Numbered from the stretch's first letter, positions 556-26,574 are shown. The stretch: 26,757 bases of DNA from a virus (IMGVR_UViG_3300007735_000554:1-26757), one strand, 5' to 3'. Notes: generated by a model not told the origin, from the letters alone. Numbers and translations: made by a program.

Positions 556-1188
556 TTAATTTATGCAACAAACTCCAGACATGCTGCATATAATGTCTGA
601 TACCATTCTATTCGCTCTATCGTATCTTCCATGAGCTTGATTAGATGGATTGTAAGATTCATTTATTCCTGATACAGGTCTAACGTATGCTCCAAAAGTA
701 GATGGTGTGGATACAAAGTCCCAACAAATCAATTCTAAATCGTCTTCCACTCTTACCAAACCCTCTCCTATCGGAGACACTGTACCCATGGCTCTTGAAG
801 AGATTCCAACTGTTATATTGTTAGCAAATAACTGTTTAAGTATATTTCCTGATGGGGTTGGAAGTATCTCTATATCTCCGTATAGATTCTTTCCATCAAA
901 CCAAAGTTTTAATATATTGTGTGAAACATTTTTTAAATTTATAACTGAAGTTTCTGGATGATCCAATTCTCCAAGAGCTCTGTTTTCTGCGATAGGACCT
1001 TTTATGTATAACTCTACTTGTTGTTTTAAAGTTTCGTATGGATATATTCTTCTATTAGCATTTGGCTTATCACACGCTTGCACAAGACCTGAAACAATCA
1101 TGTTGCCGTTGCCGTTTCTAGTGCCTTCAGATAGTCTGTGCTTTGTGGGCGTGAATACGCTATATTCTATTAAAAGATCTTTGTTCAT
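556..1188 (-). CDS. 21: Prohead core protein and maturation protease, gp21-like
   Basis: A protein of 210 residues matching the T4 gp21 (herpesvirus-assemblin-like fold) prohead protease family in length and motifs. The catalytic histidine lies in GELDHPETS (His77) and the nucleophile in GISSRA (Ser130/Ser131); the core also shows the family pattern NANRRIYP near residue 46 and the conserved CWDFVSTPS segment. In T4 this enzyme cleaves scaffold, capsid and internal proteins after (L/I)-x-E before DNA packaging. Its own N-terminus, DLLIEY, contains such a site at residue 8, so self-processing is possible. The ATG overlaps the stop of the upstream 464-aa gene as TAATG at 1188, indicating coupled translation, and the scaffold gene follows downstream, the usual T4-like order 21-22. 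Confidence 0.9.
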   Translation of the reverse strand: MNKDLLIEYSVFTPTKHRLSEGTRNGNGNMIVSGLVQACDKPNANRRIYPYETLKQQVELYIKGPIAENRALGELDHPETSVINLKNVSHNILKLWFDGKNLYGDIEILPTPSGNILKQLFANNITVGISSRAMGTVSPIGEGLVRVEDDLELICWDFVSTPSTFGAYVRPVSGINESYNPSNQAHGRYDRANRMVSDIICSMSGVCCIN

Positions 1189-2738: not shown

Positions 2739-3137
2739 TTAATCGCCTCCACGATAATACATTGATTCAGGATCTGAATATGCAGATGGATCGAAAGGTT
2801 TTGATTTTTGTTGTGGTTGAGGAATTGGAGCATCTTTATAAATCAACTGCAAAGGTTTTCCGTCTACCAAAATTACTTCAGCAGCTATAGCTAGATCTTC
2901 AGCGTCTCTTGGAAGAGTTACTCTACCACCTTTTTTGAAAGTCGCTAAATTAATCATTGGCATTTTGAAAACTTCTTCACCTTCAATGGTAACTAAAGCT
3001 CCAGATCTTAAAGCGGATTGTAACGCTCTCAAAGTTGCATCTACATCTACTACTTTATTATTTTCATTTTCTCGTAATCTTGAAAATGGACCTAATTTAT
3101 TTTCTACCAAATATTGTTTATAGTTAAAATCTCCCAT
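2739..3137 (-). CDS. Head-module protein of unknown function, 132 aa
   Basis: Unrecognised. The N-terminus (GDFNYKQYLVENKLGPFSR) carries two (L/I)-x-E sites, LVE12 and LRE23, each followed by Asn, similar to the start of the 118-aa protein at 9526-9882. The remainder reads as a small mixed alpha/beta domain (residues about 28-105) followed by a Pro/Gln/Lys-rich tail ending YYRGGD. The ATG overlaps the upstream stop as TAATG at 3137. Placed among portal, protease and scaffold genes, it is likely to be incorporated in the prohead. Confidence 0.65.
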   Translation of the reverse strand: MGDFNYKQYLVENKLGPFSRLRENENNKVVDVDATLRALQSALRSGALVTIEGEEVFKMPMINLATFKKGGRVTLPRDAEDLAIAAEVILVDGKPLQLIYKDAPIPQPQQKSKPFDPSAYSDPESMYYRGGD

Positions 3138-4892: not shown

Positions 4893-4911
4893 TTATTTAG
4901 ATTATACTGCT

Positions 4912-4919: not shown

Positions 4920-4928
4920 TGTGTCAAT

Positions 4929-6830
4929 TTACGGTAAATCTGATTTTATATTATCTTCGCTCAATAAAGATGGCTCGTTAAACAACTTCGTCTTTCTACC
5001 CATTGCATCTAACATAGCTTTATTTCTAATATATTCGCTCATAGCGCTTTCATAAGTCAGTGGACCTCCTTTATATTGTACTTTCATACTGTCTTCAGAA
5101 GAGTTTGTTTTTTTCATCTCTTTTTTACCAATTGCGTCTCTTCCAAATGCTGAATCATCTGTGCCGATTTTTGATTGATATTTTTTAGGTCTTCCTGGAC
5201 CTTCTTCTACATCCTTTTCGTCATATCCTATTGGTAAATCAAGTGGAGAATCTCCTTTTCCTCCATATAAGCTAGCTAATTGATGAGGTGTTCCAAATAC
5301 TTGACCAGTTTCTGCTGGATCATTACCTTCTTCTTCAATTTGTTTGAGCCTAAATATTTTTTTCTTGTCTTCAGCTATAAGATCTTCCATTTCAGCATAT
5401 TGATCTTCTGAGAATTGGAATATTTTATCGTATATGAAATCTTTAGGTAGTAGATTTCCATCCATAGCGTCTTTAGCAAGAGCAACTTTTTCTTTAAATA
5501 AAGCGATTCTTTCTTGCTCGTAAATAATAGAAGGGTTGGTTAAAGATAGAGTAAAATTCGCTGCAGACTCATTTGTATAGCCGTGAGCATATAAATGAAC
5601 AAGAGCCACTTTCGTAAGTTCAGAAACTATAATGCGCTGTATGCGTTCTACAGTTCTAGCAAAACGAATATCTTCAGCAGCTAAAGTAGCTTTACCGCTC
5701 AAATCTTTTTCGTACCCCATAAAAGCTTTAGGAATCTTAAGAGCGGCAAAAAGCTTTTCTCTAAAATATGTAACGTCTTCTATTGCGTTATACTCCAGCC
5801 CTTTTGCAGTATCTATTCTAGTCGTATTGTCTCCTCCTCTAACTGGAATGAAGAAATCTTCTAATAAGTTTTGCTGATTATATTTTAGATTATAGTTTCC
5901 TGTATTTGGATCGATAAGAGGAGTTTTTTTCATTTTACCGATCATCCTCTGCATATAGTTTTCTACCTCATTTGGTGGAATTGCTCCAACATTTACATAA
6001 AAAGTTCTGCGTTCTGGAGCCCTAGTAATACGATGAATTAACATCGCATCTTCTATAAGTGTATACTGTTTAAATAATTTTCTGGCTGGCTCTAAATAAG
6101 ACCTTCCGTACGGTAGATAATTTACATCTCCTGTTAATCTAAAGTGCGCCATTTCATAGTTATCGAAATAGATTCCAGGATCTTCATTATTATATGCAGA
6201 TGAGAAACCAGATGTAGTTCCTAGTGCGCCAAGAGGATCGTATTTAAAACGAACTTCATTAGGATTTTGAGGATTGTAGCCTTCTTGACGAATTATATTA
6301 TACGCAGAAAAAGGAATAACGTTATAAACACCGAATTTTTCTGCTATTTCCATTTTCAAGTAAAAGTCTCCGTATTTACACATGTTTCTTATCCAAGACC
6401 ACATAGTAAATTCTATATTCAAAACAGAATAGAATAAATTATATAATATTTTTTGAATATTTTCATCAGAAGATCTTATCTGTAAAACCTCTCCCTGTTC
6501 GTTTTTAAGCGTACATTCGTCAGCTATAATATCTAAAGCCGATGCTACTATCGCATCTGTATCCATAGCGTCATAATCAGCATATATTTGAACCCTGGCT
6601 GATTGGTAATTTTGAGCTAGATTTAGGTTGACTCCATAAGCGGTAGATGTTGTATATATCTTATGAAATCTATCTACTAGAGAATTAGTCTGTATTACAC
6701 CGTTATTTTGAATCCTATCAACGTCAATTACTTTTAGATTACCGGCTCCATCGTTTCTGATTATTACGTCAGTAGAAAATAGTCTCCTAAGAGTAGAAAA
6801 TAAATTATTCTGTTTTTGTTGTTCTGCCAT
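4929..6830 (-). CDS. 20: Portal vertex protein, gp20-like
   Basis: The 633-residue product matches T4-like portal proteins (T4 gp20 is 524 residues) in its alternation of segments and by position next to the terminase. Recognisable family regions include DRFHKIYTTSTAYGVN near residue 48, YADYDAMDTDAIVASALDI near 82-100, the stretch around YLPYGRSYLEPARKLFKQ near 240, ITRAPERRTFYVNVG near 268, and FREKLFAALKIPKAFMGY near 360. The portal forms the dodecameric ring through which DNA enters. The C-terminal 130 residues are a charged, low-complexity extension accounting for most of the extra length. The start ATG follows the terminase stop by about 10 bases, so the two are co-transcribed. Confidence 0.93.
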   Translation of the reverse strand: MAEQQKQNNLFSTLRRLFSTDVIIRNDGAGNLKVIDVDRIQNNGVIQTNSLVDRFHKIYTTSTAYGVNLNLAQNYQSARVQIYADYDAMDTDAIVASALDIIADECTLKNEQGEVLQIRSSDENIQKILYNLFYSVLNIEFTMWSWIRNMCKYGDFYLKMEIAEKFGVYNVIPFSAYNIIRQEGYNPQNPNEVRFKYDPLGALGTTSGFSSAYNNEDPGIYFDNYEMAHFRLTGDVNYLPYGRSYLEPARKLFKQYTLIEDAMLIHRITRAPERRTFYVNVGAIPPNEVENYMQRMIGKMKKTPLIDPNTGNYNLKYNQQNLLEDFFIPVRGGDNTTRIDTAKGLEYNAIEDVTYFREKLFAALKIPKAFMGYEKDLSGKATLAAEDIRFARTVERIQRIIVSELTKVALVHLYAHGYTNESAANFTLSLTNPSIIYEQERIALFKEKVALAKDAMDGNLLPKDFIYDKIFQFSEDQYAEMEDLIAEDKKKIFRLKQIEEEGNDPAETGQVFGTPHQLASLYGGKGDSPLDLPIGYDEKDVEEGPGRPKKYQSKIGTDDSAFGRDAIGKKEMKKTNSSEDSMKVQYKGGPLTYESAMSEYIRNKAMLDAMGRKTKLFNEPSLLSEDNIKSDLP

Positions 6831-6839
6831 GTTAAAAAA

Positions 6840-8438
6840 TTATAATAGCCAAGTTAAATCTTGAGATTCTTGACCTTGAGAATTGTTTATAGACATTGCC
6901 CAAGGATTTTGATTCACGTGACTATTTGCATTATATAAAAGTGTGTCTGCGTTTGTTTTAGAATAATTACTTAAAGCGCTATATGTTAGACTTTCAGCAG
7001 TTTTCCTATATCGTAAAGACGTTTCTCTTAGGTACATTCCCATAGAAAAACTCATAACTAAATCGTCATTATATCCTCCCATTGCTTGTTGTTTATTATT
7101 TTTCCAAATAAAAACTCTAAGCTCTTCTAACAGTCTAATAGATCTAATTACTGCTAATTTAGTTTCTATAACTTCTCTCATTTTTTCTAAAGCTAAAGGT
7201 CTGGTTCTTGCAGACATAGTAAAACCCGGTACTAAACCATCCGCTCTTTCAAACTTATTCAAATAAGTACTAAAATCTGAATTTCCTTCTGCTTTTAGAC
7301 TATAATAAATATTCGTGTATCCACTTTCTACAATGGATTGAACAACGTCCCAGCCTATATTAGCATTTTCTACAACTAATAAAGCTTGATTGTATTCAGT
7401 TGCTGCGGCTATAAGTACATTAGCATAATCTCTTGTGCCAATTTGAGATTTATATTCAGCAACTTGAGTCATTGTTTCTATGTCAAGAATGTGAAAAGCT
7501 GAATAATCTGATCCATCGCCTCTAGCTACGTCAGCCACTAAAGCATAATACTTCATCGGATCTGGATATTCCCAAATCCAATAGGCTTTATCTAGGCCCC
7601 TTCTTTCTTGTGGCTCTTGTATGCAATTTTGTTCATACCAAGTTAAAATTTCTGGATCTATAACTGTGTTACCCGAGCTGAGAAAATCACAATCGCACTC
7701 TTGCGCTGCATTCCTTTTCCCAAGATCCACATCCTGCATGTCTCTCCATGATTGATCTCTTTCTGGATGCACTGTCCAAGGAAGCGATATCGGTATAAAA
7801 TTATTATCTCCTTTTTGAGCTGCTGTATATGTTTTATGAAACCAGTTACCAACGCCGTTTGGGGTAGAAAGAGCTATGCATCCTCCTCCCGTTGCAAGAG
7901 TCATTTTAGCCGCCGTATATATAGTATCTATATTGTCTATAAAAGCTGCCTCATCTATTACTAGAAGAGATACCGCTTCAGAACGACCTGAGTCGCCCGC
8001 TGCAGACACGGCTTTAATTTGAGATCCGTTTGCTAAACGCAAACTAAGTCTATTGTTTTCTGTGGCCCCAGTTCCTATTTTTAACCAAACTGGCAAATTA
8101 TCGTAAGCAAATCTTACTTTAGTTACCATGTTCTTTGCTGTGTCTTGCTTGGTAGCAATTACAAGGATGTTTTTATCCTTATTGAAAATCATCAACCATA
8201 AAGAATACGCAGAAACTAGCGTAGAGATACCCAACTGTCTAGATTTATTTATAACAGAATCTGGATATTTTTGAAATAAGCGAAGTACTTTTTCTTGGAA
8301 AGGATAAAGGTCGAACAGTTGTCGACCTCTTTGTGGATGCTGGATCGTATAATACTTCTTCATGAAGTACACAGGATCTTGAGCGCATTTAACGAACTCT
8401 TCTTTAATTTTTTCTTTTATACTTATTTGCTCAGACAC
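6840..8438 (-). CDS. 17: Large terminase subunit (packaging ATPase/nuclease), gp17-like
   Basis: A 532-residue terminase of the T4 gp17 type. The N-terminal ATPase has a Q-motif region (YPFQEKVLRLFQKYP), a Walker A variant SRQLGIST (66-73), Walker B LLVIDE (158-163) and a coupling motif LSTPNG (190-195). The C-terminal RNase H-like nuclease has acidic residues in VADVARGDGSD (Asp303), LVVENANIG (Glu357) and YNDDLVMS (Asp458/459). It cuts concatemeric DNA and pumps it into the prohead. The start used is GTG at 8438; N-terminal residues 12-40 (EEFVKCAQDPVYFMKKYY) match the usual family beginning, so this start fits. No sheath (gp18) or tube (gp19) gene separates it from the portal gene, unlike T4. 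Confidence 0.95.
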   Translation of the reverse strand: MSEQISIKEKIKEEFVKCAQDPVYFMKKYYTIQHPQRGRQLFDLYPFQEKVLRLFQKYPDSVINKSRQLGISTLVSAYSLWLMIFNKDKNILVIATKQDTAKNMVTKVRFAYDNLPVWLKIGTGATENNRLSLRLANGSQIKAVSAAGDSGRSEAVSLLVIDEAAFIDNIDTIYTAAKMTLATGGGCIALSTPNGVGNWFHKTYTAAQKGDNNFIPISLPWTVHPERDQSWRDMQDVDLGKRNAAQECDCDFLSSGNTVIDPEILTWYEQNCIQEPQERRGLDKAYWIWEYPDPMKYYALVADVARGDGSDYSAFHILDIETMTQVAEYKSQIGTRDYANVLIAAATEYNQALLVVENANIGWDVVQSIVESGYTNIYYSLKAEGNSDFSTYLNKFERADGLVPGFTMSARTRPLALEKMREVIETKLAVIRSIRLLEELRVFIWKNNKQQAMGGYNDDLVMSFSMGMYLRETSLRYRKTAESLTYSALSNYSKTNADTLLYNANSHVNQNPWAMSINNSQGQESQDLTWLL

Positions 8439-8453
8439 GAACTGCTTTTAATT

Positions 8454-8461
8454 TATAAATA
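8454..8461 (-). promoter_or_regulatory. Late-promoter-like octamer TATTTATA upstream of terminase
   Basis: The 107-base gap 8439-8545 holds no gene. Minus-strand TATTTATA lies 15 bases upstream of the GTG start of the terminase. A second weaker copy (TATTTATC) lies at about 8506-8513. This would give the head operon its own transcript. Confidence 0.45.
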
Positions 8462-8545
8462 TATATTTTATTCGGTCAATGCAACTGTATATTTGTTCGG
8501 TAACAGATAAATATTCAATATCTATATATTATTCTCATCAGTATT

Positions 8546-8806
8546 TTATTGCATGCCCAATTGCATACGAATAAAATTACCTGCAGTCTCAACCATTGCA
8601 TCTAGATTAGTGCTACCTGGATTCTCATTTATTCCCGTTTGCGCAGCGTCATCAAGAACTTGTTCTAGTGAGTTACATGTCATTGCTTGTACTGCTAGTA
8701 CTAATCCAAACATAAAAGGATCGCATATTAGCTTAACCATAATTTTTTCTTTCATAATTGTGCTATTATATTTTTTATTTTTAAAAAAATCAATTAATTT
8801 TTTCAT
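8546..8806 (-). CDS. Small protein of unknown function, 86 aa
   Basis: Unrecognised. The N-terminus is Lys-rich (MKKLIDFFKNKKYNST), followed by a hydrophobic stretch (MFGLVLAVQAM, about residues 32-42) and an acidic, helix-prone C-terminal half ending MQLGMQ. Internal Met residues at 18 and 23 are possible alternative starts. It follows the 128-aa secreted/membrane protein by two bases and precedes the terminase promoter region. Confidence 0.5.
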   Translation of the reverse strand: MKKLIDFFKNKKYNSTIMKEKIMVKLICDPFMFGLVLAVQAMTCNSLEQVLDDAAQTGINENPGSTNLDAMVETAGNFIRMQLGMQ

Positions 8807-8808
8807 TG

Positions 8809-9195
8809 TTATTTGGTAAAATAAAGATATGTTAATCCGCCAACAACAGCGCTTAATGTTATTTTGGTAAACAGCAATTTTACTTTTAATTTTTTATTTT
8901 GTTTACGTAATTGATCAACCCACTTACCCTGAGTATCGAATTTCAATTGCTCGTTTTTTATGCGCTCTTCGTACATGACACCTTTTTGAACGTGTCCAGA
9001 TATAATACTATCTTTTAATGTTACTTTTTGTTCAGTTAAAACAAGTTGTTCTTTAGTTAATTCAAGTATCGCTTTAGTGCTATCACATCCTACTAATTCT
9101 TTAGCTATTTGTTTAGCTACAGGTGTGGGTATGTGAATTGTATCTTGTGATTTACCAAATAAAGGTAAGAATAATAATATAAACAAATATTTCAT
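8809..9195 (-). CDS. Exported coiled-coil protein with C-terminal membrane anchor (spanin-like)
   Basis: The 128-residue product starts with a signal peptide (MKYLFILLFLPLFGKSQ; cleavage likely after residue 17), continues with a helical region rich in Glu, Lys and Leu (about 40-105) and ends with a hydrophobic segment LFTKITLSAVVGGLTYLYF (about 108-126). An exported protein with a coiled coil and a terminal membrane segment, paired with the overlapping upstream gene that has an N-terminal anchor and coiled coil, resembles a spanin pair joining inner and outer membranes at lysis. The signal peptide has no lipobox cysteine, so it is not a classical outer-membrane spanin. The signal peptide style is like that of Bacteroidota proteins. 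The ATG overlaps the previous stop as TAATG at 9195. Confidence 0.65.
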   Translation of the reverse strand: MKYLFILLFLPLFGKSQDTIHIPTPVAKQIAKELVGCDSTKAILELTKEQLVLTEQKVTLKDSIISGHVQKGVMYEERIKNEQLKFDTQGKWVDQLRKQNKKLKVKLLFTKITLSAVVGGLTYLYFTK

Positions 9196-9566
9196 TAGTA
9201 ATTGTATCTAGCTTTAAAAAATGAATCTAATTCAGTAGGAGTATAATTATTTACTTGTTGACTCACTTCGTGATAATATTCTTTGATAATTGTTGTTTTT
9301 TCTTTTACATTATCAATTTTATCATCAACTTGTTTTACTTCAGTTTCATAAATATGAATAGCACTATCGATTTGTTTTTGATGTTCTATTAGTTGTTTAT
9401 TAACATTAGTTAAAGAGTCAATTGTTGTCTGTAAATCAGCGGGTATTTGTGGTTTACGAGTAGCGATCCATATAATACCATAGATGATTAGCAAAGCTAA
9501 GACTACATAAATTATGTTTTTATAATTAATCTTCGCTATCTGAAGAAGTTGGATTCTCGACTGCAC
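9195..9566 (-). CDS. Membrane-anchored coiled-coil protein (inner-membrane spanin-like)
   Basis: The product has one membrane segment near the N-terminus (IIYVVLALLIIYGIIWIA, about residues 19-36) and then a polar helical region of about 80 residues with heptad-like spacing, ending FKARYNY. This topology (N-in, C-out coiled coil) is that of inner-membrane spanins and related lysis accessory proteins. The only conventional start is GTG at 9566, which overlaps the upstream gene by 41 bases; initiation at a non-standard codon close to 9530 would remove the overlap, so the start is uncertain. The spanin reading depends on its pairing with the next gene; no holin or endolysin is seen nearby. Confidence 0.55.
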   Translation of the reverse strand: MQSRIQLLQIAKINYKNIIYVVLALLIIYGIIWIATRKPQIPADLQTTIDSLTNVNKQLIEHQKQIDSAIHIYETEVKQVDDKIDNVKEKTTIIKEYYHEVSQQVNNYTPTELDSFFKARYNY

Positions 9567-9882
9567 TTATTTTCTTTTTTAATTGTTTTATTTCGTTTGG
9601 TATATTACCTATAGCTTTATTATAATCTGAAATACTGCCTTTTACTTTTCTGCCTTCAGGAGTATCTTTTGTGTATTTGAATATTATATCTTTAGCTTTT
9701 GCTTGAAGTTGAGCCAACTTCTTTTTATTTTTCTCTAAATCTCTCATTTGCTTATCAGTATCCTGCATATCAACTTTTGTAGGTTCAGGAGTTGAATCAG
9801 GGTCTACGTCTTCTATAATTCTTTTTTTGCCAATCAGTGTTAGATTATTTTCTATTAGATATTTTTGTAGATCGAATGACAT
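9526..9882 (-). CDS. Coiled-coil protein with capsid-targeting-like N-terminus, 118 aa
   Basis: Unrecognised. It begins MSFDLQKYLIENNLTLIG, with LIE11 followed by Asn, very similar to the opening of the 132-aa head protein at 2739-3137 (QYLVENKLG). After an acidic/proline linker (residues 25-42) the rest is a charged helix (about 45-105), and the tail is Ser/Asp/Glu rich. It follows the 640-aa protein gene after one base. The shared N-terminal form suggests delivery to the prohead. Confidence 0.6.
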   Translation of the reverse strand: MSFDLQKYLIENNLTLIGKKRIIEDVDPDSTPEPTKVDMQDTDKQMRDLEKNKKKLAQLQAKAKDIIFKYTKDTPEGRKVKGSISDYNKAIGNIPNEIKQLKKKISAVENPTSSDSED

Positions 9883-9883
9883 A

Positions 9884-11806
9884 TTATAGATGTTGAATTT
9901 TTGAGATTTCTATAGTTCCTTGAGTAGTTCCATTATTTCTAGCATTTAAAGTTATTTTGATGTTGTCATCTTTTTTCTTTGACGCTAAAATTTCTATAAC
10001 TAATCCTCCAAAAGTAGAAGAATCTGTTATTTTTATCGGTTGTATTTTATCTTGAACATATAGAGATAGCGCACTTCCAGCTTCAAAAGTCTCTATTTTT
10101 CCAGGCTCTCCACTACTTGATGCTATTACTTTGTAAAAGGTCGGAGAAACATCTCCTAAAGACATTGCAAAAGCCGCCAATGCTAATAAAGCATCGTCTA
10201 TTGATTGTACGCCTTCATCGCTTGCTATCTGTGTAAAAAAGAAATTTAGTGATTTTAAAGCCGCATATTTACCTCTTAATTGATCTGATTTTATTTTTTC
10301 AATATCGCTATCAACTAGATCATATTTAATGTTGCTATTCTTTTTTACATACGATAGTATAGACTTTCTTAATCTTTCTATACCTTCTCTATATTTTCTA
10401 TCGTTATAATTTTGTTCGTCGGAAGTTAAGTTATATTCTGTTTTTGCTTTTTTGAATTTTTCAAAATATGCTTTTGCTTTACCACCTTGAGCTTTTTCAA
10501 ATTTTAGAGATACAGCTACTAAAGGAGCATTTATTGCTCCCCATTTAGACGCGAACGCATTGCTCAATATACCAGCAGTTTGAGAAGAATCTTCCGTTCT
10601 TGCTTTTTGTAAAATGCTTTGCGCTTTTTTATCGTTAATAACAACATACACATCTCCAGGGCACCATTTATCTGCAGGCATACCTAATTTTTCGTGCGCT
10701 ACGCTTCTTATTTCGTCAAATATTCCTGTTCTAGTTAAATTGAATGTCGAATATTTGCTTTTTATTGCTAAAGCTTGAGATAGAGGTTGATTTAAATTAT
10801 TTAAAGATTCTGGTGTATTCTTTATGGTAGAAAGATATTGATTTAATTCAGATCTAGTATTATCGCTTATTCCTGGACTTTTTATCAATACTTTTTTCAA
10901 CGTTTCTACAGAACTATCAAAATTCGTTTTATTGATCGATTTGGAAATTTTAGAGTAAAAAAACAATATAACCAACCCTTCTTTTACATTCGTTGATGTC
11001 GCTGTTTCTGAAGATCCTTTGAATAGTAGATTCGCTTCTCCTGATTTTGTTTTTAGTTTTACATTTCCAATCGATGAAAGACCTTTTGATATTTTAGCAT
11101 CTACTCCTTTTGTCGCTAACAATTGTTTCATCGCGTCCAATCTAGCTTTTTTATCTCTAGTATTTATTCCACTAAAATATACTTTATACGTATTTTTTCC
11201 TGTTTTTTCTATTTTTTGTATCCCTAAAGAAGCTATATTTTTATTTTTCTTTAAAATATTAGATATATCATCTTCCATAGATTCTGATAGTAGTCTACGG
11301 AGAATTTGTGACTCCTCTAAAGTTTCCCCTTCTTCTCCTGCCTCAGGTGCCGATGTTTCTGCTGGTGGCGTTTCTGCTGTTGATTCTTCTCCTCCTGTCT
11401 CTGCTCCTTGCTCTGCTCCCTCAGGACCTTTAACTTTCATAGGGCTTCCCCATCTAAGTAATCTGCCTATAGCCAACATCGCTCTTTGTTTTTCTCCTGT
11501 CGTCATTAGAAAGTAGTTTTTTCCAGCTATAGTGGCTTGATAGGCTTCTCCCATAAACGTTAAGAAGAAATACTGATTGTTATGTAAAACTATTTTAAAA
11601 GATGTAGGTTTATACGCAATAATGTATATACCGGTTAATAACTCTTTGAAATTTTCAGACATCAACTCTTCAAGAATTTCTCTTAAATCATCGTATTTGT
11701 TTAATATAAAATTCATTGGATCGTCTTCAAAAGTTTTTGGAGGCGTTTCCATACGATTTTCTTCGTCTTCTATCAATAATTTTTTTAGTATGTCTAAATT
11801 TTCCAT
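9884..11806 (-). CDS. 640-aa protein with possible PD-(D/E)xK-type nuclease core and capsid-targeting-like leader
   Basis: Opens with MENLDILKKLLIEDEENR, an xLxxLLxE leader (LIE13). Residues 55-120 form a small beta-rich domain; 125-165 is a Glu/Ala/Pro/Gly low-complexity linker; at 168-175 a second leader-like motif ILRRLLSES occurs. The remainder (about 190-640) is one or two globular domains. Within it, NVKEGLVILFF (Glu276), GDVYVVINDKK (Asp385) and VAVSLKFEK (Ser433-Leu-Lys435) are in the order and spacing of the Glu, Asp and (E/S)-x-K elements of restriction-endonuclease-like folds. This is my pattern reading, not an established family match. It is the largest gene of the accessory block; a virion-packaged enzyme is possible. 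Confidence 0.6.
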   Translation of the reverse strand: MENLDILKKLLIEDEENRMETPPKTFEDDPMNFILNKYDDLREILEELMSENFKELLTGIYIIAYKPTSFKIVLHNNQYFFLTFMGEAYQATIAGKNYFLMTTGEKQRAMLAIGRLLRWGSPMKVKGPEGAEQGAETGGEESTAETPPAETSAPEAGEEGETLEESQILRRLLSESMEDDISNILKKNKNIASLGIQKIEKTGKNTYKVYFSGINTRDKKARLDAMKQLLATKGVDAKISKGLSSIGNVKLKTKSGEANLLFKGSSETATSTNVKEGLVILFFYSKISKSINKTNFDSSVETLKKVLIKSPGISDNTRSELNQYLSTIKNTPESLNNLNQPLSQALAIKSKYSTFNLTRTGIFDEIRSVAHEKLGMPADKWCPGDVYVVINDKKAQSILQKARTEDSSQTAGILSNAFASKWGAINAPLVAVSLKFEKAQGGKAKAYFEKFKKAKTEYNLTSDEQNYNDRKYREGIERLRKSILSYVKKNSNIKYDLVDSDIEKIKSDQLRGKYAALKSLNFFFTQIASDEGVQSIDDALLALAAFAMSLGDVSPTFYKVIASSSGEPGKIETFEAGSALSLYVQDKIQPIKITDSSTFGGLVIEILASKKKDDNIKITLNARNNGTTQGTIEISKIQHL

Positions 11807-11812
11807 ATTATT

Positions 11813-12289
11813 TTAAAGTTCGTGGTATCCCGTATTAGCTTGATTTATGTAGTTTTGTGCTTGAGATATGTGATCTTGAATCCAACCTGGCAAATCCATT
11901 TCATTTTGCCCTATCTTATTCATTAATTGCGATGCGTTGCTTATAATATCTTTTAATAAATTTTGAGCCATTCCTACTTCGTGATCCTCAGAGCTATCAT
12001 CTTCTTGTGAAGCCCAGCCGCATTCTTGACACATATCTTCATACATCATCGATCCGCATTCTTGGCATGCATCTGGATATTGTTGTGGTCTGCCTACGGA
12101 ATACTTCTTCATTCCTATAGAATACTCATCTTGAGCACCTGTTTCATCTAAGTTTTTTTCTATTTTTTGAGCTACTTTTTTCTCCCAAGAAGAGATTTTT
12201 TTATCTTTGTCTCTATCAGCTAAGTGAGGTTTTTCTAAACCTGATTTTTCGTAAGATACTTCGTTTAATAGATTTTTTAATTTTATCAT
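11813..12289 (-). CDS. EF-hand/zinc-ribbon protein with capsid-targeting-like leader, 158 aa
   Basis: Three elements can be read. Residues 1-12, MIKLKNLLNEVS, form an xLxxLLxE leader (LNE10). Residues 25-36, DRDKDKKISSWE, fit a canonical 12-residue EF-hand calcium loop (Asp at 1, 3 and 5, hydrophobic at 8, Ser at 9, Glu at 12). Residues 75-90 contain CQECG and CQECG, two CxxC pairs 8 residues apart, as in zinc ribbons. The C-terminal part is helical (MNKIGQNEMDLPGWIQDHIS) and ends YHEL. The ends of the protein resemble other small T4-like phage proteins of unknown function. Four-base ATGA overlap with the upstream gene. Confidence 0.7.
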   Translation of the reverse strand: MIKLKNLLNEVSYEKSGLEKPHLADRDKDKKISSWEKKVAQKIEKNLDETGAQDEYSIGMKKYSVGRPQQYPDACQECGSMMYEDMCQECGWASQEDDSSEDHEVGMAQNLLKDIISNASQLMNKIGQNEMDLPGWIQDHISQAQNYINQANTGYHEL

Positions 12290-12567
12290 TTTTTAGATTT
12301 TTTCTTTTTACTCTTTCTTGCTTTTTTCCACAACTTATTATCTACTTTTCTAGCTCCTCCTTTTCCAGTAACAAAAGAATTGACTCTTCCCATAGCCCAC
12401 TGATGTTGACCAACTCCTGGTCTATGTCCTCCTTTCCATGCGCTTAGTCCTTTTTCATATACTTGTTTTAATATAGTTTTAGATATACCCGTAGCTTTTG
12501 CTTTATTAGATAGCGCTTTTTCTACGTTATCATCGTACTCTAATAGTAATTTAAGTAGACTTATCAT
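12286..12567 (-). CDS. Small basic protein (DUF5824-like), 93 aa
   Basis: Begins MISLLKLLLEYDDN, a leader with LLE10. The body reads AKATGISKTILKQVYEKGL, then WKGGHRPG, WAMGRVNSFVTGKGG and a Lys/Arg/Ser tail of about 15 residues. The combination of a 'gi-k-L-VY-G-aw' helix, HRPG and WAxxRVNSF is familiar from a phage family of unknown function that I believe is DUF5824, from memory and not verified. The very basic tail suggests DNA contact. ATGA overlaps on both sides place it in a chain of coupled small genes. Confidence 0.65.
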   Translation of the reverse strand: MISLLKLLLEYDDNVEKALSNKAKATGISKTILKQVYEKGLSAWKGGHRPGVGQHQWAMGRVNSFVTGKGGARKVDNKLWKKARKSKKKKSKK

Positions 12568-12830
12568 TTGCTTTTACCGAATCTTTTTTCGTACGCAGTA
12601 GTTGCTGCGGACTTTTTTGTTTTATATTTTTTAGTCTTATCTTTATCTGCATAATCAGCTTCCCATTTTCCGTAAGCTGAAGGATCATTCGATTTTAGTT
12701 TCTTTACTCTATCTATCTCTCTCTTCATCGCGGCTTTATCTTTTGTAAGATAAGCTTTTTTAACTTTAACTCCGCCTTTAGTTCTTTCAGCTTCCATTAA
12801 TAAAGCTAATAGGTGTATTATTTTTTTCAT
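12564..12830 (-). CDS. Small basic protein with leader, 88 aa
   Basis: N-terminus MKKIIHLLALLMEAERTKGG holds an amphipathic leader with LME13 followed by Ala, a good gp21-type site. The mature part would be a highly basic helical protein (KAYLTKDKAAMKREIDRV, then DPSAYGKWEADYADK, then KKYKTKKSAATTAYEKRFG). This pattern recurs in T4-like phages as an unnamed small protein. Its charge and size recall T4 internal proteins IPI-IPIII, which are small, basic and packaged with DNA. Function unknown. Confidence 0.65.
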   Translation of the reverse strand: MKKIIHLLALLMEAERTKGGVKVKKAYLTKDKAAMKREIDRVKKLKSNDPSAYGKWEADYADKDKTKKYKTKKSAATTAYEKRFGKSK

Positions 12831-13114
12831 TTTAAAAATTCAGGGTATTTCTCCAATAATCTATCGTATATAGATCTCCTAATAGCTTTTAATTCTCTTA
12901 GATTTTTTTCTAAGATAGGATCTTTTATGTGCTCGTCAATTTCAGCTTGTTGAATATTCTTTATTACTTCGTCCAGTTTTTTCAAAATTCTATTGAAATC
13001 TGGTTTGTATGTTACATCCCAAGAAATTTTACCTGTTTCTGGATCTACTGCGGTTTGAGTGGTTGTCGCAGCTGTATAATCTCCGATCTCTAATAATTTT
13101 TTTAAACTATACAC
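12827..13114 (-). CDS. Small protein with leader, 95 aa
   Basis: Unrecognised. Starts MYSLKKLLEIGDYTAATTT with LLE9. Residues 12-40 are Thr-rich with a possible beta hairpin (PETGKISWDVTYKPD); residues 42-95 are helical and end LEKYPEFLK. Overlaps the upstream gene by 8 bases and the downstream one by 4 (ATGA). Confidence 0.6.
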   Translation of the reverse strand: MYSLKKLLEIGDYTAATTTQTAVDPETGKISWDVTYKPDFNRILKKLDEVIKNIQQAEIDEHIKDPILEKNLRELKAIRRSIYDRLLEKYPEFLK

Positions 13115-13370
13115 TTTTTATTATTTTTAGTTTTAATTTTCCAGTCCCTTTTATCGCTCTATGCCAAATGTGTTTCTTTATAAATACTTTTTGGTTTATT
13201 GATATTGGTAAATTATTGTCTAATTGTATTTGCCAATCCGTATGTTCTAGAGCCTCTATTAACCTATCTTCATTATCTCTATGCCACATTAATTCTATAG
13301 GATCTATATTTTCATCAAATTCTCTAATTATAAAATTTTGATCTGTTATTAAATCTTTATATGGATTCAT
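13107..13370 (-). CDS. Small protein of unknown function, 87 aa
   Basis: Unrecognised. Visible pattern: an acidic first half with MWHRDNEDRLIEALEHTDWQ (about residues 28-47) and a basic, beta-prone second half (NQKVFIKKHIWHRAIKG, KLKLKIIKSV). It lacks the clear xLxxLLxE leader of its neighbours (IRE17 is the closest). A TATTTATA on the minus strand inside the gene near 13179-13186 is probably chance. Follows the 195-aa gene after 9 bases. Confidence 0.55.
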   Translation of the reverse strand: MNPYKDLITDQNFIIREFDENIDPIELMWHRDNEDRLIEALEHTDWQIQLDNNLPISINQKVFIKKHIWHRAIKGTGKLKLKIIKSV

Positions 13371-13379
13371 AATATAAAT

Positions 13380-13967
13380 TTACCAAAATCCAGAAAAATT
13401 AGATTTTAACCCTAACAACTTGGCATACCTTGGAAGTCTACAACTCCAATATTTAGGAGTAGTTTTATCTTTCGCTTGAGCGCATTTGTGTCTAGCGGCA
13501 AAAGATTTTCTAGCTTGCGGATTATTTATTTTTGCAGATAATCCCGTTGTATCACCAAAAGTAACTTTTTTTATACCTCCTCCAGGTTTTCTAACATAAA
13601 CGTAAAATTTTTTAGGACCTCCTCTTTTAGGTTTGTTTAATTGAGGTTGTTTTTTCTTTTTTGCTTTAACCTCTAACAAAAATTCTAGAGTTATTGGATA
13701 ATCTAATGGAACTTTAACTCCTTTATAAATTCCCCATTTTCCTATATCAGTATTATCAAAGTACCAAGAATCCTCTTCTGTGAGTTGAATTTTACCGGTT
13801 TCATATAACTTTCTAGATTCTTCAAAAAGTTCTAGGTATTTGATAGATTGAGGCCTATATATATTTTCGTTTATTGGAATGTCATTGTCTAAATGATACA
13901 ATAGACCTTCTGATAGCATCAATCTATTAACAGTTTCGTCTAATCGTATTCTAGTGCAACAATCCAT
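13380..13967 (-). CDS. Two-part protein with conserved basic C-terminal domain, 195 aa
   Basis: Residues 1-95 form an acidic/neutral N-terminal part with WYFDNTDIGKWGIYKGVKVP at 68-87. Residues 94-112, LEFLLEVKAKKKKQPQLNK, form a junction that has a gp21-type site (LLE99 followed by Val) and then a Lys-rich stretch. Residues 118-180 form a basic domain: KKFYVYVRKPGGGIKKVTFG, NPQARKSFAARHKC and YWSCR. This C-terminal pattern (VYVR-P-GG-KKV-FGD, ARKSF-ARH-C, YWSCR) recurs in T4-like phages as a protein of unknown function, often right after a leader. Here the leader-like junction is internal, so cleavage could release the C-terminal domain. TAATG junction with the upstream gene at 13967. Confidence 0.65.
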   Translation of the reverse strand: MDCCTRIRLDETVNRLMLSEGLLYHLDNDIPINENIYRPQSIKYLELFEESRKLYETGKIQLTEEDSWYFDNTDIGKWGIYKGVKVPLDYPITLEFLLEVKAKKKKQPQLNKPKRGGPKKFYVYVRKPGGGIKKVTFGDTTGLSAKINNPQARKSFAARHKCAQAKDKTTPKYWSCRLPRYAKLLGLKSNFSGFW

Positions 13968-14338
13968 TATTGTAAATTAACTAATTTATATTTTGTAGTC
14001 TCTATCAAAGAAACTATTTCATCAATTTGATTCTGTATATAGCTATCCTGAGTAATTTGCGTCCTAGTGGTTTCTGTAAACTTACAAAGAGCCTCAAAAT
14101 ATGTAACGTAATTTGCGTCTTCTCTTAATGACGCTGGCATTTTATACCCTCTTACTATGCCGTAACGACCTTGGTAAGATTCAACTAAAGCATCTATTAA
14201 AGGTACTATGCCTTCATAATATGTGCCTAAAGCTCTATGAGCGGCGTCAGATCCTACTCCTGAGGCTTGCCAGTGATATATGTGTGTTTGGTTTCTTGAT
14301 TGTAATAAAGTACCTATCAAAAGTGCAAATTGTTCCAT
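13967..14338 (-). CDS. Dps/ferritin-like protein (mini-ferritin), 123 aa
   Basis: The segment THIYHWQASGVGSDAAHRAL followed by YYEGIVPLIDALVESYQG matches helices A-B of Dps-type ferritins. His22, His34, Asp49 and Glu53 have exactly the spacing (12, 15, 4) of the E. coli Dps ferroxidase residues His51, His63, Asp78 and Glu82, and Trp follows the first His as in Dps. The residue corresponding to Dps Asp67 is Gly38 here. At 123 residues it is shorter than Dps (about 167) but still has a C-terminal helix (NQIDEIVSLIETTKYKL). I recall a phage family of this type (DUF5856), unverified. Possible roles: iron binding, DNA protection or an inert structural fold. TAATG junctions at both ends couple it to its neighbours. 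No clear capsid-targeting leader. Confidence 0.75.
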   Translation of the reverse strand: MEQFALLIGTLLQSRNQTHIYHWQASGVGSDAAHRALGTYYEGIVPLIDALVESYQGRYGIVRGYKMPASLREDANYVTYFEALCKFTETTRTQITQDSYIQNQIDEIVSLIETTKYKLVNLQ

Positions 14339-14958
14339 TATTTTTTATTTTTTTTGTTATCTTCTATTTCTTTTTTAGATTTTTCTATTTTTTCAAGTTT
14401 CGTCATGAAATCATCAATCTTATCCGCAATCATAGCTATGTGATCTTTATGCTTACTCGCGTTCTTTGGATCTTCTTTTGCCATATCCATGTGCTCTTTT
14501 CTTTTCTTTTCTAAGGTATCTATGGCTTTTTTAAGCTTGTCAGTTGCAACGCCTTTCTTTTCTTCTAAAGCTTTTTGTTTATTCAAATAGTCTTCATACA
14601 GTTCCATAGCTGTGTCTTTAGCCATATCCTCATCTGCATACAAAGCATGTACCTTATCAGGTACTAGTTCATGACCTGTGCCAATTCCTAAAAGTGGATC
14701 TATCGGTTTTACTAAAGACGTTAATTGACATCCTGCATATGGTTTTTGAACAGCGAATAATTGCGTTATTGCTCCTGGTATGACTTCCATTTCTTCTTTC
14801 ATTTGTTTACTTTTTGGTATTTTATTTTCTGCGTGTATTTGTAATGCAGCCACGTAATCATTTAGATCTCCTTTTGTGCATCCGACTTTTTCTCCTCTTG
14901 AACCGTCAGATTTTTTTTTATATACGCACTTATTTTTACGATCAATAGAATATGGCAT
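14338..14958 (-). CDS. Helical protein with cysteine-containing N-terminus, 206 aa
   Basis: Unrecognised. The first 45 residues (MPYSIDRKNKCVYKKKSDGS, then KVGCTKGDLNDYVAALQIHA) form a small basic domain with two Cys that resembles a short module repeated at the start of several phage proteins. The middle (60-115) is globular with GCQLTSLVKPIDPLLGIGTG. Residues 120-206 are a Lys/Glu-rich coiled coil ending in KKNKK. Preceded by a TATTTATT/TATAAATA motif pair. Confidence 0.6.
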   Translation of the reverse strand: MPYSIDRKNKCVYKKKSDGSRGEKVGCTKGDLNDYVAALQIHAENKIPKSKQMKEEMEVIPGAITQLFAVQKPYAGCQLTSLVKPIDPLLGIGTGHELVPDKVHALYADEDMAKDTAMELYEDYLNKQKALEEKKGVATDKLKKAIDTLEKKRKEHMDMAKEDPKNASKHKDHIAMIADKIDDFMTKLEKIEKSKKEIEDNKKNKK

Positions 14959-14964
14959 AATTGT

Positions 14965-14979
14965 TATTTATAATAAATA
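14965..14979 (-). promoter_or_regulatory. Overlapping TATTTATT and TATAAATA elements
   Basis: In the 23-base gap before the gene starting at 14958, the minus strand reads TATTTATTATAAATA (14979 to 14965). It contains both the octamer recurring in this window (TATTTATT) and a perfect T4 late promoter octamer (TATAAATA, 14972 to 14965), the latter 6 bases before the ATG. Confidence 0.5.
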
Positions 14980-14981
14980 TT

Positions 14982-15551
14982 TTAAATAGTGATCTTTTTA
15001 AGTTTTTCTATATTTGACTTTATTTCTTCGTACATTTTTGTCTTATCTACTTTTCCCCAACTCTCTATATCTCCTGCTTCTGTAACAAATGAATCATTCT
15101 CTTTCATCCATGCTTCTAAACCCATCTCAAACTCCTCTAAACTAGCATTTTTATTTTGATTTAGAATATCTTTTTCGTATTGTTCATATTTTCCCTCTAT
15201 TTTTAGTTTTGTCTCCATCTCAGTTACGCAATCTAAACACATTCCGTGAATAGAATACATTTTTTTATTTACATCGTGTACTTTAAATGCTGTTTTACAA
15301 TTTGGACAAGTCAATGGAAGCACAACTAATTTTTTTAGATTATCTAACTTGGTTATAGTTTGTTTTATTCCATTTTTTATTGTCCATCTTTTACCGCTTT
15401 CTTCCCAAACGTCTCCTTCTTGATAATCTTGTTTGTGTTTTTCCCACCCTGTTTGAATTTGCGTTCTATCTCCTGCTTTTCCAGTAATGATATTTCTCAT
15501 TCTCTGTACTGTGCTTTGCGAAAATTCTTTTTTTAATGTTGATTGATTCAT
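14982..15551 (-). CDS. Zinc-finger protein, 189 aa
   Basis: The N-terminal 40 residues (LKKEFSQSTVQRMRNIITGK) look like a helix followed by a basic loop; the segment EGDVWEESGKRWTIKNGIKQ (44-63) is a small beta module; LTCPNCKTAF and HGMCLDCVTEME (about residues 78-113) supply two CxxC pairs forming a treble-clef-like or zinc-ribbon site. The C-terminal part is helical with an acidic/aromatic motif ending KMYEEIKSNIEKLKK. This domain order recurs in T4-like phages as a protein of unknown function. ATGA overlap with the downstream zincin-HAD gene. Confidence 0.65.
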   Translation of the reverse strand: MNQSTLKKEFSQSTVQRMRNIITGKAGDRTQIQTGWEKHKQDYQEGDVWEESGKRWTIKNGIKQTITKLDNLKKLVVLPLTCPNCKTAFKVHDVNKKMYSIHGMCLDCVTEMETKLKIEGKYEQYEKDILNQNKNASLEEFEMGLEAWMKENDSFVTEAGDIESWGKVDKTKMYEEIKSNIEKLKKITI

Positions 15552-16441
15552 AATCGAAACTTTTTTAATATGTTTATTGTTTGTTCAGCGCTTCTGTGAG
15601 TGATTCCAATAGCTCCCAAAGCTTTCCAAGGCGCTAGGTTTTTGTAGTAATCGTCTATTAGTATAGATCTCTTTATTTCAGACTCTGGAAGTCCCTGGAT
15701 AGCTTCTTCTTTGTGGCCTGTTTGTTTATATATTATATCACTTGGAGCTGGTCTTAGGTTATTTGCAATCCATATATCTTTTCCCTGTTTGGCGTATTTA
15801 AAAGTACTTGGACTGGATAATATTATAGGTTGATATTTAGATATGTACGACCATAATTCAAGTGCTCCAGGAAATAGAGGCATTTTAGCCCAAAAATCGA
15901 GTCCTATATCGTCAACCGCTTTTTTCATTATTGTTGGACCTTTTGCGTTTGAAAATTCTCTAGCGCTCATTCCATAATAGTGATCAAACTGAGCTTCAAA
16001 ATCTGTTAGGACTCCATCCATATCACAATATATAGTAAATCTTGGTTTTATAGCAGAAATAGATAGTTTGCTATTCGCAGATTCATATATTAATTCATTT
16101 ACGCCTCCGTAATTTCTCATAAGTATTCCTGATATGGAATTGGCTTGATTCTCAATCTCAGATCCTGTGTCTCCAGATCTTGAATCTAACATCCCCAATT
16201 CGTTTTGTCTGTGATGAACTAATTCATGAGAAAGAGTTCTTAATATATCCGCTAAATTTCTATTTCCTATATAAATGTGAACAGAATTTTCTCCGTTTCT
16301 ATATTGACCGAAGCTATGAATTCCCGTTGCCCAACTTCTGTCTTCAGTGAAGTTTATTTCAGGGATAGTTTCTATTTCTAGATTTTTTACGCAGTATTGT
16401 ATAAAATCCTCTACTATTTCTTTCTTTTGCTCAGGACTCAT
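15548..16441 (-). CDS. Fusion of a zincin-like metallopeptidase domain and a HAD phosphatase/5'-nucleotidase-like domain
   Basis: Residues 1-118 contain TLSHELVHHRQNE, an HExxH zinc site (His72, Glu73, His76) with a likely third ligand in GSEIENQAN (Glu97), typical of minimal zincin proteases. Residues 135-297 are a HAD-superfamily hydrolase: motif I FTIYCDMDGVLTDFE (nucleophile Asp140, acid/base Asp142), motif II ILSSPS (Ser209/Ser210), motif IV ILIDDYYKN (Asp263/264), with a cap of about 50 residues, most like 5'-nucleotidase-type HADs. The linker VNELIYESANSK contains IYE120 followed by Ser, a possible gp21-type site. The N-terminus also has IVE11. TAATG junction with the nucleotidyltransferase gene at 16441. 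All catalytic residues appear intact. Confidence 0.85.
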   Translation of the reverse strand: MSPEQKKEIVEDFIQYCVKNLEIETIPEINFTEDRSWATGIHSFGQYRNGENSVHIYIGNRNLADILRTLSHELVHHRQNELGMLDSRSGDTGSEIENQANSISGILMRNYGGVNELIYESANSKLSISAIKPRFTIYCDMDGVLTDFEAQFDHYYGMSAREFSNAKGPTIMKKAVDDIGLDFWAKMPLFPGALELWSYISKYQPIILSSPSTFKYAKQGKDIWIANNLRPAPSDIIYKQTGHKEEAIQGLPESEIKRSILIDDYYKNLAPWKALGAIGITHRSAEQTINILKKFRL

Positions 16442-17034
16442 TATTTTTCTAATATTTTTGTTAATAGACCAAAAACTTTTTTTGCTTGTCCTTTATTATA
16501 TGCCGTCGCTGGCACGAATTTTGAAAACTCTCTAAAGTTTCCGTCTTTGATTGTCTGTCTCATCTGAGTTGCTGATATTCTTCCAAATTGATCAGGTATA
16601 ACTATGGATTTTACAACTCCTGGAAATTTTTCCTGTAGTTTTTTTGTATATCCTAATTTCTCTATCTCTTCTTTAGCTCCTGCGACATATATACTTTTAA
16701 CATCTGGATTTTGTGAAGCAAATCTAAATATATCTTTTATGGGTGTACTTTCTGTAGAAACCTTTACGTCTATGTTATTATTAGGTTCAGCTTTCAAATA
16801 ATCTTCCCATATAGTTAAACTATCTTTTGGAGTTATTCCAAATTTAGTAACATTGCTAATAATTACATAAACTTTATTAATATTTGGCAAGTTAGCTAAA
16901 TACTTAGCAGCTTCAAAATGACCTTTGTGCGGAGGTTTAAATTTACCAGGAAAAAAACACGGTCCGGTATTTTTATTAACTTCTTTTATTATGTCTCTTA
17001 TTATTTCAAACCCTATTTGACTATAATCACGCAT
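16441..17034 (-). CDS. Cytidylyltransferase-like nucleotidyltransferase (NMNAT/CTP-transferase superfamily)
   Basis: The 197-residue product has the class-defining N-terminal motif FFPGKFKPPHKGHFEAAKYL (HxGH: His36, Gly38-His39) and the C-terminal nucleotide-binding motif RISATQMRQ (ISxTxxR at 153-159). It has the length of a single Rossmann-type transferase domain. Enzymes of this fold join a nucleotide to a phosphorylated substrate (NMN, phosphopantetheine, phosphocholine and others); the substrate cannot be read from the sequence. NMN adenylyltransferases occur in other T4-like phages, which makes NAD metabolism one option. The first 20 residues form a helix with IKE18. It lies between the zincin-HAD and kinase genes with 1- and 8-base overlaps, suggesting the three act together. 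Confidence 0.85.
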   Translation of the reverse strand: MRDYSQIGFEIIRDIIKEVNKNTGPCFFPGKFKPPHKGHFEAAKYLANLPNINKVYVIISNVTKFGITPKDSLTIWEDYLKAEPNNNIDVKVSTESTPIKDIFRFASQNPDVKSIYVAGAKEEIEKLGYTKKLQEKFPGVVKSIVIPDQFGRISATQMRQTIKDGNFREFSKFVPATAYNKGQAKKVFGLLTKILEK

Positions 17035-17827
17035 TCGCTAATTTATTTAATCTATTTTTTATACTATTAGGATCGTCAAATTTTAAATCTTTAAGCTTAT
17101 TTATTTGAGATTTTATAATGGCATTTAGCTCTTTGATTTTCTTATTAGATTTTTCTCTGTCTTTAGCAGATTTTTCCTTTCCTTTAACTGTAAAAGGATC
17201 AAAAAATTGTTTTTTGATTTCTGGATCTGATGGATCAAAGTTCGGGAAAATCTCTTCTCCTTGTTTATATGCTTTATATAACATAAAATTATTACCAAAT
17301 TCTTTTCTATATAAATCTATGTTATTAAACATGGAAGACCAGCTTCTCAAAATTATTGACGGCATTAAAGTTCTTCCGCCTTCTTCTCCTCTTTTTATGT
17401 TTCTACTTAAAGATATATCAGGGGGAACAAAAATTAAAACCATTGCTGTTTTATATCCCAATTTTTCTAATTCAGACTTCTTTTTTAGGATTTCATTTGA
17501 CGAGGCTCCTGTTCCATCTATTATAAGATGCGACATGTCTGTTTTTAATTTTTCGTATCTCGCTCTATGCATTTTTTGAGCTTGAGACATAGCGGTACCT
17601 GCTGTAGATAAATCTTCTGGACCTTTAAACTTTCTAAAATCTAACGGTAATCCGGCTTTTTTCAATAAAGGTTCGTATATATCGTCTATATTTAATATCG
17701 TAAAATTCGCTATAGAATCTATAAATTTTTTTCTAAAAGTAGTCTTACCAGCTCCAGCAGATCCAGCTAAAAATATCGCTATCGGTCTATTTACCGCTTC
17801 TAATAATAAACTAGACAATCTTATCAT
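17027..17827 (-). CDS. P-loop kinase of the zeta-toxin/polynucleotide-kinase type with leader peptide
   Basis: N-terminus MIRLSSLLLEAVNRP is a clear xLxxLLxE leader (LLE10 followed by Ala) directly before the kinase core, which begins IAIFLAGSAGAGKTTFRKKF with Walker A GSAGAGKT (22-29). Asp48/49 in LNIDDIYEP and Asp104 in LIIDGTGAS are likely catalytic or metal residues, and a lid with Arg142, Arg146 and Arg152 lies in SRNIKRGEEGGR. This arrangement fits zeta-toxin-like kinases or related small-molecule kinases; the substrate is unknown. After about residue 205 there is a Lys-rich helical tail. ATG is three bases after a TATTTATA octamer. Confidence 0.8.
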   Translation of the reverse strand: MIRLSSLLLEAVNRPIAIFLAGSAGAGKTTFRKKFIDSIANFTILNIDDIYEPLLKKAGLPLDFRKFKGPEDLSTAGTAMSQAQKMHRARYEKLKTDMSHLIIDGTGASSNEILKKKSELEKLGYKTAMVLIFVPPDISLSRNIKRGEEGGRTLMPSIILRSWSSMFNNIDLYRKEFGNNFMLYKAYKQGEEIFPNFDPSDPEIKKQFFDPFTVKGKEKSAKDREKSNKKIKELNAIIKSQINKLKDLKFDDPNSIKNRLNKLANA

Positions 17828-26115: not shown

Positions 26116-26574
26116 ATGGCAAAAATAGATTTACTTAGAAAACTAATAAGAGAAGAAGTAAAAGCCGCGCTTAGAGAAGAGTTACCGAAGATATTAAGCG
26201 AAGTAAAAAAACCAGATACTGGCATCAGCAACATCATTAAAGAAATGAAGAAGTCTCAATTTCCTATGACTTTGAATACTGTTGATACATATAAATCACA
26301 ACAGAATAGACAATTTACAAATTCTTCGCCATTAAATTCTATTTTGAATGAAACGGCTATGTCAATGCAAAACGATGACTTCGATACACTAAGCTTTAAC
26401 ACAGACAATGTTAATCCAACTTCTTTTTTTCAACCTAAAGAAGTACAAGTCAGCGACGTAAATAGCATGCTTAGCACAGCTAGACCAAGTTCGGATATAT
26501 CTATGGTACAAATTAACGAAGTTCCTGACTATTCAGGGCTTATGAAAAATTTAATGTCGAAAGGAGTAATGTAG
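26116..26574 (+). CDS. Virion protein candidate with helical N-terminus, 152 aa
   Basis: Unrecognised. The N-terminus is a highly charged amphipathic helix (AKIDLLRKLIREEVKAALRE), with IRE13 in the leader position, followed by ELPKILSEVKK. The rest is Ser/Asn/Thr/Met-rich, low in structure, with repeated short motifs (SILNE, SMLST, LMSKGVM). It lies directly before the gp25 gene in the baseplate cluster, so a tail or baseplate component is probable. Confidence 0.6.
   Translation: MAKIDLLRKLIREEVKAALREELPKILSEVKKPDTGISNIIKEMKKSQFPMTLNTVDTYKSQQNRQFTNSSPLNSILNETAMSMQNDDFDTLSFNTDNVNPTSFFQPKEVQVSDVNSMLSTARPSSDISMVQINEVPDYSGLMKNLMSKGVM
26561..26566 (+). promoter_or_regulatory. Shine-Dalgarno sequence of the gp25-like gene
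   Basis: AAGGAG lies 9 bases before the ATG at 26576, inside the end of the preceding gene. It is one of the few convincing Shine-Dalgarno sequences in the window and fixes the gp25 start. Confidence 0.6.

Follow-up and report, generated by a model that had tools for sequence, protein, structure and literature searches.

T4-like N-terminal leaders on a predicted set of head cargo proteins in a freshwater phage

In T4, the internal proteins IPI-IPIII carry a targeting sequence (MKTYQEFIAE↓A, the arrow marking the cut) and Alt and gp24 carry short propeptides; the carriers are otherwise unrelated proteins, a gp21-family protease is present, and the accessory genes are clustered. Amber-suppressor substitution in IPIII (MKTYQEFIAE) has shown that residues 4 and 7 serve targeting, whereas residues 8 and 10 serve processing (PMC9026906). 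The Ip loci of T-even phages comprise at least 10 proteins across related phages, co-encoded, homologous only in their N-terminal leader and found by it, and Ip1-3 inhibit GmrSD nucleases (PMC12373910). In SPN3US/phiKZ, a prohead protease removes an N-terminal propeptide, mostly of more than 100 residues, from injected ejection proteins (PMC5694885). The stretch analyzed here, IMGVR_UViG_3300007735_000554:1-26757, is an entire IMG/VR virus record of 26,757 bases (the window) from a freshwater phage related to T4, and contains a block of genes, many of whose products begin with a leader resembling the T4 sequence in length (10-20 residues), in hydrophobic residues at 4, 7 and 8, and in Glu 10. 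Those hallmarks of a T4 capsid targeting sequence that can be checked from sequence are present in these leaders, and, as in the Ip loci, the co-encoded proteins are alike in the leader alone.

Several features distinguish the present locus from these systems. Relative to T4, the consensus is different (MIKLxxLLxE, together with a long FDLxKYLxENNLT type and an xRMQxLAGIxxE type), carriers are far more numerous per genome and include enzymes, one protein holds tandem internal signals, and the hosts are probably Bacteroidetes. Relative to the Ip loci, no known GmrSD inhibitor was seen and several cargo proteins look like enzymes; the name IPI, IPII or IPIII was not returned by the Pfam or PHROG scans, no direct comparison with IPI-III having been made. 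A propeptide of the SPN3US/phiKZ type (about 80-160 residues) was not found either, the leaders here ending at residue 9-20. The kind of system is known from T-even phages, while its scale, cargo and tandem signals appear to be new; no description of a tagged cargo block in this phage group was found in the literature searched, mostly outside subscription journals.

Enrichment of the leader in the window and its relatives

A strict form of the leader, [LIVMFYW]xx[LIVMFY][LIVM]xE ending at residue 8-20, occurs in 10 of the 35 window proteins, against 1.23 expected from internal windows (binomial p 2e-7). For the window proteins, 5000 shuffles gave a mean of 1.13 and a maximum of 6, and 10 was never reached. 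The strict form is found in 7/14 proteins of the block and in 3/21 of the rest of the window (Fisher p 0.03). The bare [LI]xE motif is enriched about twofold (19/35 versus 8.0 expected), in agreement with the warning in the initial annotation that this motif is weak. All seven open reading frames listed there as leader-bearing are present as annotated, N-termini included, and six of them fit the strict form; the exception is the 95-residue protein at 12827..13114 (minus strand), whose leader MYSLKKLLE is one residue short, placing LLE one residue early. Similar sites had also been proposed on five further proteins: those at 16441-17034 (IKE18) and of the head-module 132-residue protein (YLVE12) fit the strict form, whereas the zincin-HAD protein (IVE11), a 464-residue protein (LLE13) and the protease (LIE8) have only a bare (L/I/V)xE. 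The details given for three of the named members (12827-13114, 15548-16441 and the 464-residue protein) thus proved wrong or weak.

The check on a complete genome proposed in the initial annotation was performed on the Flavobacterium phage immuto, the nearest isolate by terminase (56.6% identity), whose host is Flavobacterium sp. LMO8, and gave a clear excess: 21 of 210 called genes match the strict form, compared with 5.6 after shuffling (p 3e-7). With the form used by the earlier reader, which has a slightly different residue set, the syntenic block region contains 12/27 matches and the remainder of the genome 14/183; the annotated immuto genes with leaders are 178, 179, 184, 187, 189, 191, 194, 195 and 199. 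The analysis was extended to 80 terminase-containing IMG/VR relatives, whose 783 proteins were grouped into 96 families with one member of each counted. Leaders were found in 31.3 of the 96 families, versus 3.5 after shuffling and 2.0 for internal windows. An internal negative control is provided by families without a single match, among them the terminase, the portal, DUF5856 and the signal-peptide or membrane proteins encoded between the block and the terminase. A majority of members carries the leader in 32 families, which were clustered on sequence beyond residue 22; several of these branch from a single superfamily, so that we put the count of genuinely unrelated carriers closer to 24. 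Single-linkage clustering had been discarded, as it chained unrelated proteins. Accordingly, a leader of 10-20 residues is common to otherwise non-homologous proteins; most other leader-bearing families received no Pfam assignment, and unrelated leader families come and go between relatives.

The same picture is obtained when similar N-termini are counted between non-homologous proteins without reference to any motif: immuto yields 28 pairs versus 6.3 (maximum 11 in 20 shuffles) and the window 4 versus 0.5. That chance, or a compositional bias toward Lys/Leu-rich starts, should account for the leader is scarcely credible. Bare (L/I)xE is indeed common (8/35 expected), but shuffles that preserve composition leave 1.1 of 35 proteins, 3.5 of 96 families and 5.6 of 210 genes where 10, 31 and 21 are observed, counts by which this explanation is already refuted, and selection acts on specific positions, as described below.

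Register, conservation and the maturation protease

The commonest form, MIKLxxLLxE, has hydrophobic residues at 4, 7 and 8 (for example MIKLKDILLE) and Glu at residue 10, which is also the modal position of the leader Glu. L4, L/I7, L8 and E10 coincide with the targeting (4, 7) and processing (8, 10) residues of IPIII, and the other leader types keep the same spacing, displaced by 1-10 residues. An Asp at residue 10 of the T4 sequence prevents processing and leaves targeting intact. Conservation was measured by comparing one leader-bearing member of each family with orthologues unselected for the motif, since selecting members on the motif biases conservation (17 families, 386 pairs). Identity is highest at the P1 Glu (0.76), followed by P7 (0.69), P4 (0.68) and P3 (0.68), and low at P2 (0.37), P5 (0.39) and P1′ (0.34), with 0.57 for the body of the proteins. 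On the alignments, such a pattern would be expected of a docking helix joined to a bond that must be cut.

The T4 major capsid protein has its N-terminus removed by gp21. Its counterpart in the relatives begins with the leader itself (MANLVQSLLNE↓S), and (Q)LVVE↓S or a similar sequence is found at the position of the gp23 cut. Applied to T4, the scan picks out two internal proteins with MKTYQEFIAE and a 427-residue protein starting MAKINELLRE↓S, plus background; this protein is presumably gp24, which is cut at that site. Leaders are not in excess in two Bacteroidetes phages where no gp21-family protease could be detected (1 versus 1.5 and 0 versus 2.2). The window encodes the gp21-type protease announced in the initial annotation (556..1188, minus strand; phrog_207 1.7e-47), which bears an LIE8 of its own near the N-terminus, comparable to the LIE-9 of T4 gp21 (PMC9026906).

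A shared leader, its enrichment in the exact T4 register, the pattern of selection among orthologues, the protease and the genomic neighborhood are established; together with the leader on the relatives' major capsid protein and the lack of excess in protease-less phages, they support capsid targeting with gp21-type cleavage as originally proposed. We assign a probability of roughly 0.78 to the leaders being signals of the T4 type for capsid targeting and cleavage, borne by an enlarged cargo set that includes the kinase, the nucleotidyltransferase, the DUF5824 protein and others. The block proteins would be made late, together with the head genes, and would bind the prohead core through the P7 and P4 hydrophobic residues of the amphipathic N-terminal helix, so that closure of the shell would trap them. 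The gp21-family protease would then cut after (L/I)-x-Glu and release the mature domain, which would remain with the DNA and enter the next host alongside it. The tag would act as an interchangeable module on many unrelated proteins. These results suggest that the phage packs a whole enzyme kit beside its DNA for injection into the bacterium, where its most likely targets early in infection would be host nucleotides, NAD or defences.

Amphipathic N-terminal helices are able to bind membranes, and the leaders might in principle direct proteins to a destination other than the head, such as a membrane, a replication compartment or a host protein. This is quite improbable, taking into account that the register equals that of T4, that the neighborhood consists of late head genes, that the major capsid protein also carries the leader, and that phages lacking a detectable gp21-type protease show no excess. 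Somewhat less remote, yet still unlikely, is an uncut helix that docks onto the scaffold or some other component of the virion, the tail included, in which case the proteins would be structural or assembly components and not injected cargo. A similar helix is in fact present in tail-module genes and on the scaffold-like N-terminus of the capsid protein. The 152-residue protein at 26116..26574 (plus strand) begins MAKIDLLRKLIRE↓E and its immuto counterpart, at 81525-81944 and adjoining a baseplate gene, begins MKLDLLKKLIKE↓A, with the helix LLRKLIRE in both phages. An uncut helix is, however, at odds with the conservation pattern, in which the P1 Glu ranks highest and P2 and P1′ stand near the bottom, as a cut site would show, and with mature parts that include enzymes with intact motifs and unrelated families varying between relatives.

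Several observations weigh against assigning the leaders to capsid targeting and cleavage. The residue set of the strict form was chosen after the window and T4 had already been seen, and the block genes at 13107, 13967, 14338, 14982 and 15548 are without the leader. The motif is not perfectly specific, because two extra strict fits (22144 and 26116) lie outside the block in the tail module; the helix of 26116-26574, and perhaps that of 22144-22500, is a warning that the motif alone does not identify cargo. Among T4-like phages, S-SM1, RM378, KVP40 and K440 exhibit little or no statistical excess, so the leader rule is not universal, and its conservation in all T4-like phages is ruled out. No virion proteomics of the window phage or immuto was found in the literature searched.

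The block and its predicted cargo

The window contains a T4-type head module on the minus strand, in which the protease is accompanied by a gp20-type portal (4929..6830; phrog_213 3.2e-68) and the large terminase (6840..8438; phrog_2 2.5e-46), neither with a leader. Past this module, the window runs through the block to an exonuclease-like gene and then a primase. These genes follow one another in the same way in the complete immuto genome (primase, exonuclease, block, terminase, portal, protease), where a scaffold-like protein and then the major capsid protein come next; the immuto protease homologue is annotated as a prohead core protein serine protease. Within the window, two short genes at 8809-9566 separate the block from the terminase; they start with a signal peptide or transmembrane segment and are candidate spanin-like genes by position.

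All cargo genes described here lie on the minus strand. The gene at 17027..17827 encodes a P-loop kinase (zeta toxin/polynucleotide-kinase-like) with the leader MIRLSSLLLE↓A in the exact T4 register (4, 7, 8, 10) and a Pfam Zeta_toxin match of 1.1e-11 (PF06414, 45 bits versus a curated cut-off of 22.3). The DUF5824 protein (12286..12567; Pfam DUF5824 1.4e-16) has the leader MISLLKLLLE↓Y, and in both proteins the Pfam domain starts at residue 13, right after the predicted cut. The gene at 16441..17034 encodes an NMN/cytidylyl-transferase-like nucleotidyltransferase (phrog_3041 1.3e-6, phrog_395 3.4e-6; Pfam CTP_transf_like only below cut-off) with the motifs PPHKGH and ISATQMR, in which HxGH and ISxTxxR are intact; its leader ends IIKE18 and is kept in 4/5 orthologues. 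The nucleotidyltransferase and the DUF5824 protein, here separate tagged genes, both match phrog_3041, a longer family in which they are fused. The protein at 15548..16441, which combines an HExxH zincin-like domain with an HAD deoxyribonucleotidase (phrog_2643 6.6e-21), has no strict leader; the immuto homologue of the nucleotidase, gene 184, has one of its own and starts MKKVMGNLADLLLE↓E.

The remaining tagged proteins are less readily classified. An 88-residue basic protein at 12564..12830 (leader MKKIIHLLALLME↓A) has no PHROG match, and a 158-residue protein at 11813..12289 (leader MIKLKNLLNE↓V) has neither a Pfam nor a PHROG match. The 118-residue protein at 9526..9882 starts with the long leader MSFDLQKYLIE↓NNLT..., retained in 38/38 relatives; the head-module 132-residue protein at 2739..3137 carries the same long type, MGDFNYKQYLVE↓NKL. 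The cargo had been described beforehand as enzymes and DNA-binding proteins: the identified members are enzymes or belong to unknown families, in keeping with the first half of that description, and no domain match backs the second.

The 640-residue protein at 9884..11806 has the leader MENLDILKKLLIE↓D (ILKKLLIE13), a conserved N-domain, an acidic linker, a second signal, SQILRRLLSE↓S (residue 175), and a variable C-terminal domain. A comparable element (ILKLLLE↓M, ILKAILKE↓A or ILEAILRE↓A) lies in the linker of several relatives, and the C-terminal parts fall into four groups without detectable similarity between them. In immuto, the N-domain sits at the opposite end of an 841-residue protein, preceded by SELKEIMLE↓A. 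Given the linker signals, the exchanged C-terminal groups and the relocated N-domain, the layout would fit a modular polyprotein cut inside the head. Structure prediction gives short helices at 2-12 and 165-173 in a region otherwise of low confidence. For the C-terminal fold, Foldseek returned no PDB match with E < 0.001; a PD-(D/E)XK nuclease, suspected from D385/SLK435 only, was not retained (AlphaFold predicted local distance difference test score 60).

Leader versions in other phages

Plausible carriers, few in number, are found in several T4-like genomes (S-SM1 MKKFSAFLNE↓A, KVP40 MKQFCNFLAE↓V, RHph MAKTYKEFIAE↓A). In the Rhizobium phage RHph_I1_18, a distinct version, MIxFKxH(L/I)xE↓S, is present on several small proteins (1866, 8633, 81057, 81503, 96838 and 129751), and the motif-free test gives 24 pairs versus 4.3 after shuffling. 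One tagged protein of this phage has a YHGT start resembling ADP-ribosyltransferases, with a PARP profile match only at E 0.03. Agrobacterium phage Atu_ph07, which encodes a gp21-family protease, carries the leader M(R/K)WxxL(T/N/I)E on ten consecutive genes at 39484-49507 (coding sequences, CDS, 53-62 by gene count from the start of the record). These genes fall within CDS 31-76, for which mass spectrometry detected 29 products in virions (PMC6102473), leader-bearing proteins possibly among them, and this placement speaks for capsid targeting. This array is comparable to the present block in its protease, its short shared leader and its location in a cluster rich in virion proteins detected by mass spectrometry; it differs in that its members are mainly related proteins, with hydrophobic residues at 3 and 6 and Glu at 8. 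Most of the ten proteins show a YRGM stretch suggestive of ADP-ribosyltransferases, and one has, as a fusion, a kinase-like domain that is related to the kinase of the window.

Injected head proteins act ahead of any phage gene expression, and to our knowledge they are almost unknown outside T4 and a few giant phages, as they have no sequence in common. There may be an even chance that large and exchangeable sets of injected enzymes are common in T4-type phages outside the enterobacteria, sorted to the head by lineage-specific leader versions (MIKLxxLLxE here, MIxFKxH(L/I)xE↓S in the Rhizobium phage, M(R/K)WxxLxE in Atu_ph07) and including modular polyproteins whose second capsid-targeting and cleavage signal frees an interchangeable effector domain inside the head. 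If so, the leaders in a genome sequence would suffice to tell which effectors a phage injects. Should the leader be a sorting signal, dozens of unknown families in an abundant freshwater phage group would become candidate injected effectors or counter-defence proteins, all of which could be tested together by one proteomics run on the culturable relative immuto, and the tags could allow foreign proteins to be loaded into the heads of these phages.

In Pelagibacter phage HTVC008M, a run of kinase, cytidylyltransferase-like protein and nucleotidase at 3155-11106 resembles the window block, with weaker leaders (MIPFILKE↓G); the association of these three enzymes is for this reason probably older than the present phage group. 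The closest annotated relative after a Flavobacterium phage is the Microcystis phage Mel-JY01 (PP395634), whose terminase is 52.7% identical to that of the window and whose stated cyanobacterial host may merit checking. Its tagged genes include MIKLKSLLQE at 60276 and a ParB-like protein, MGILKQLLKE, at 96164.

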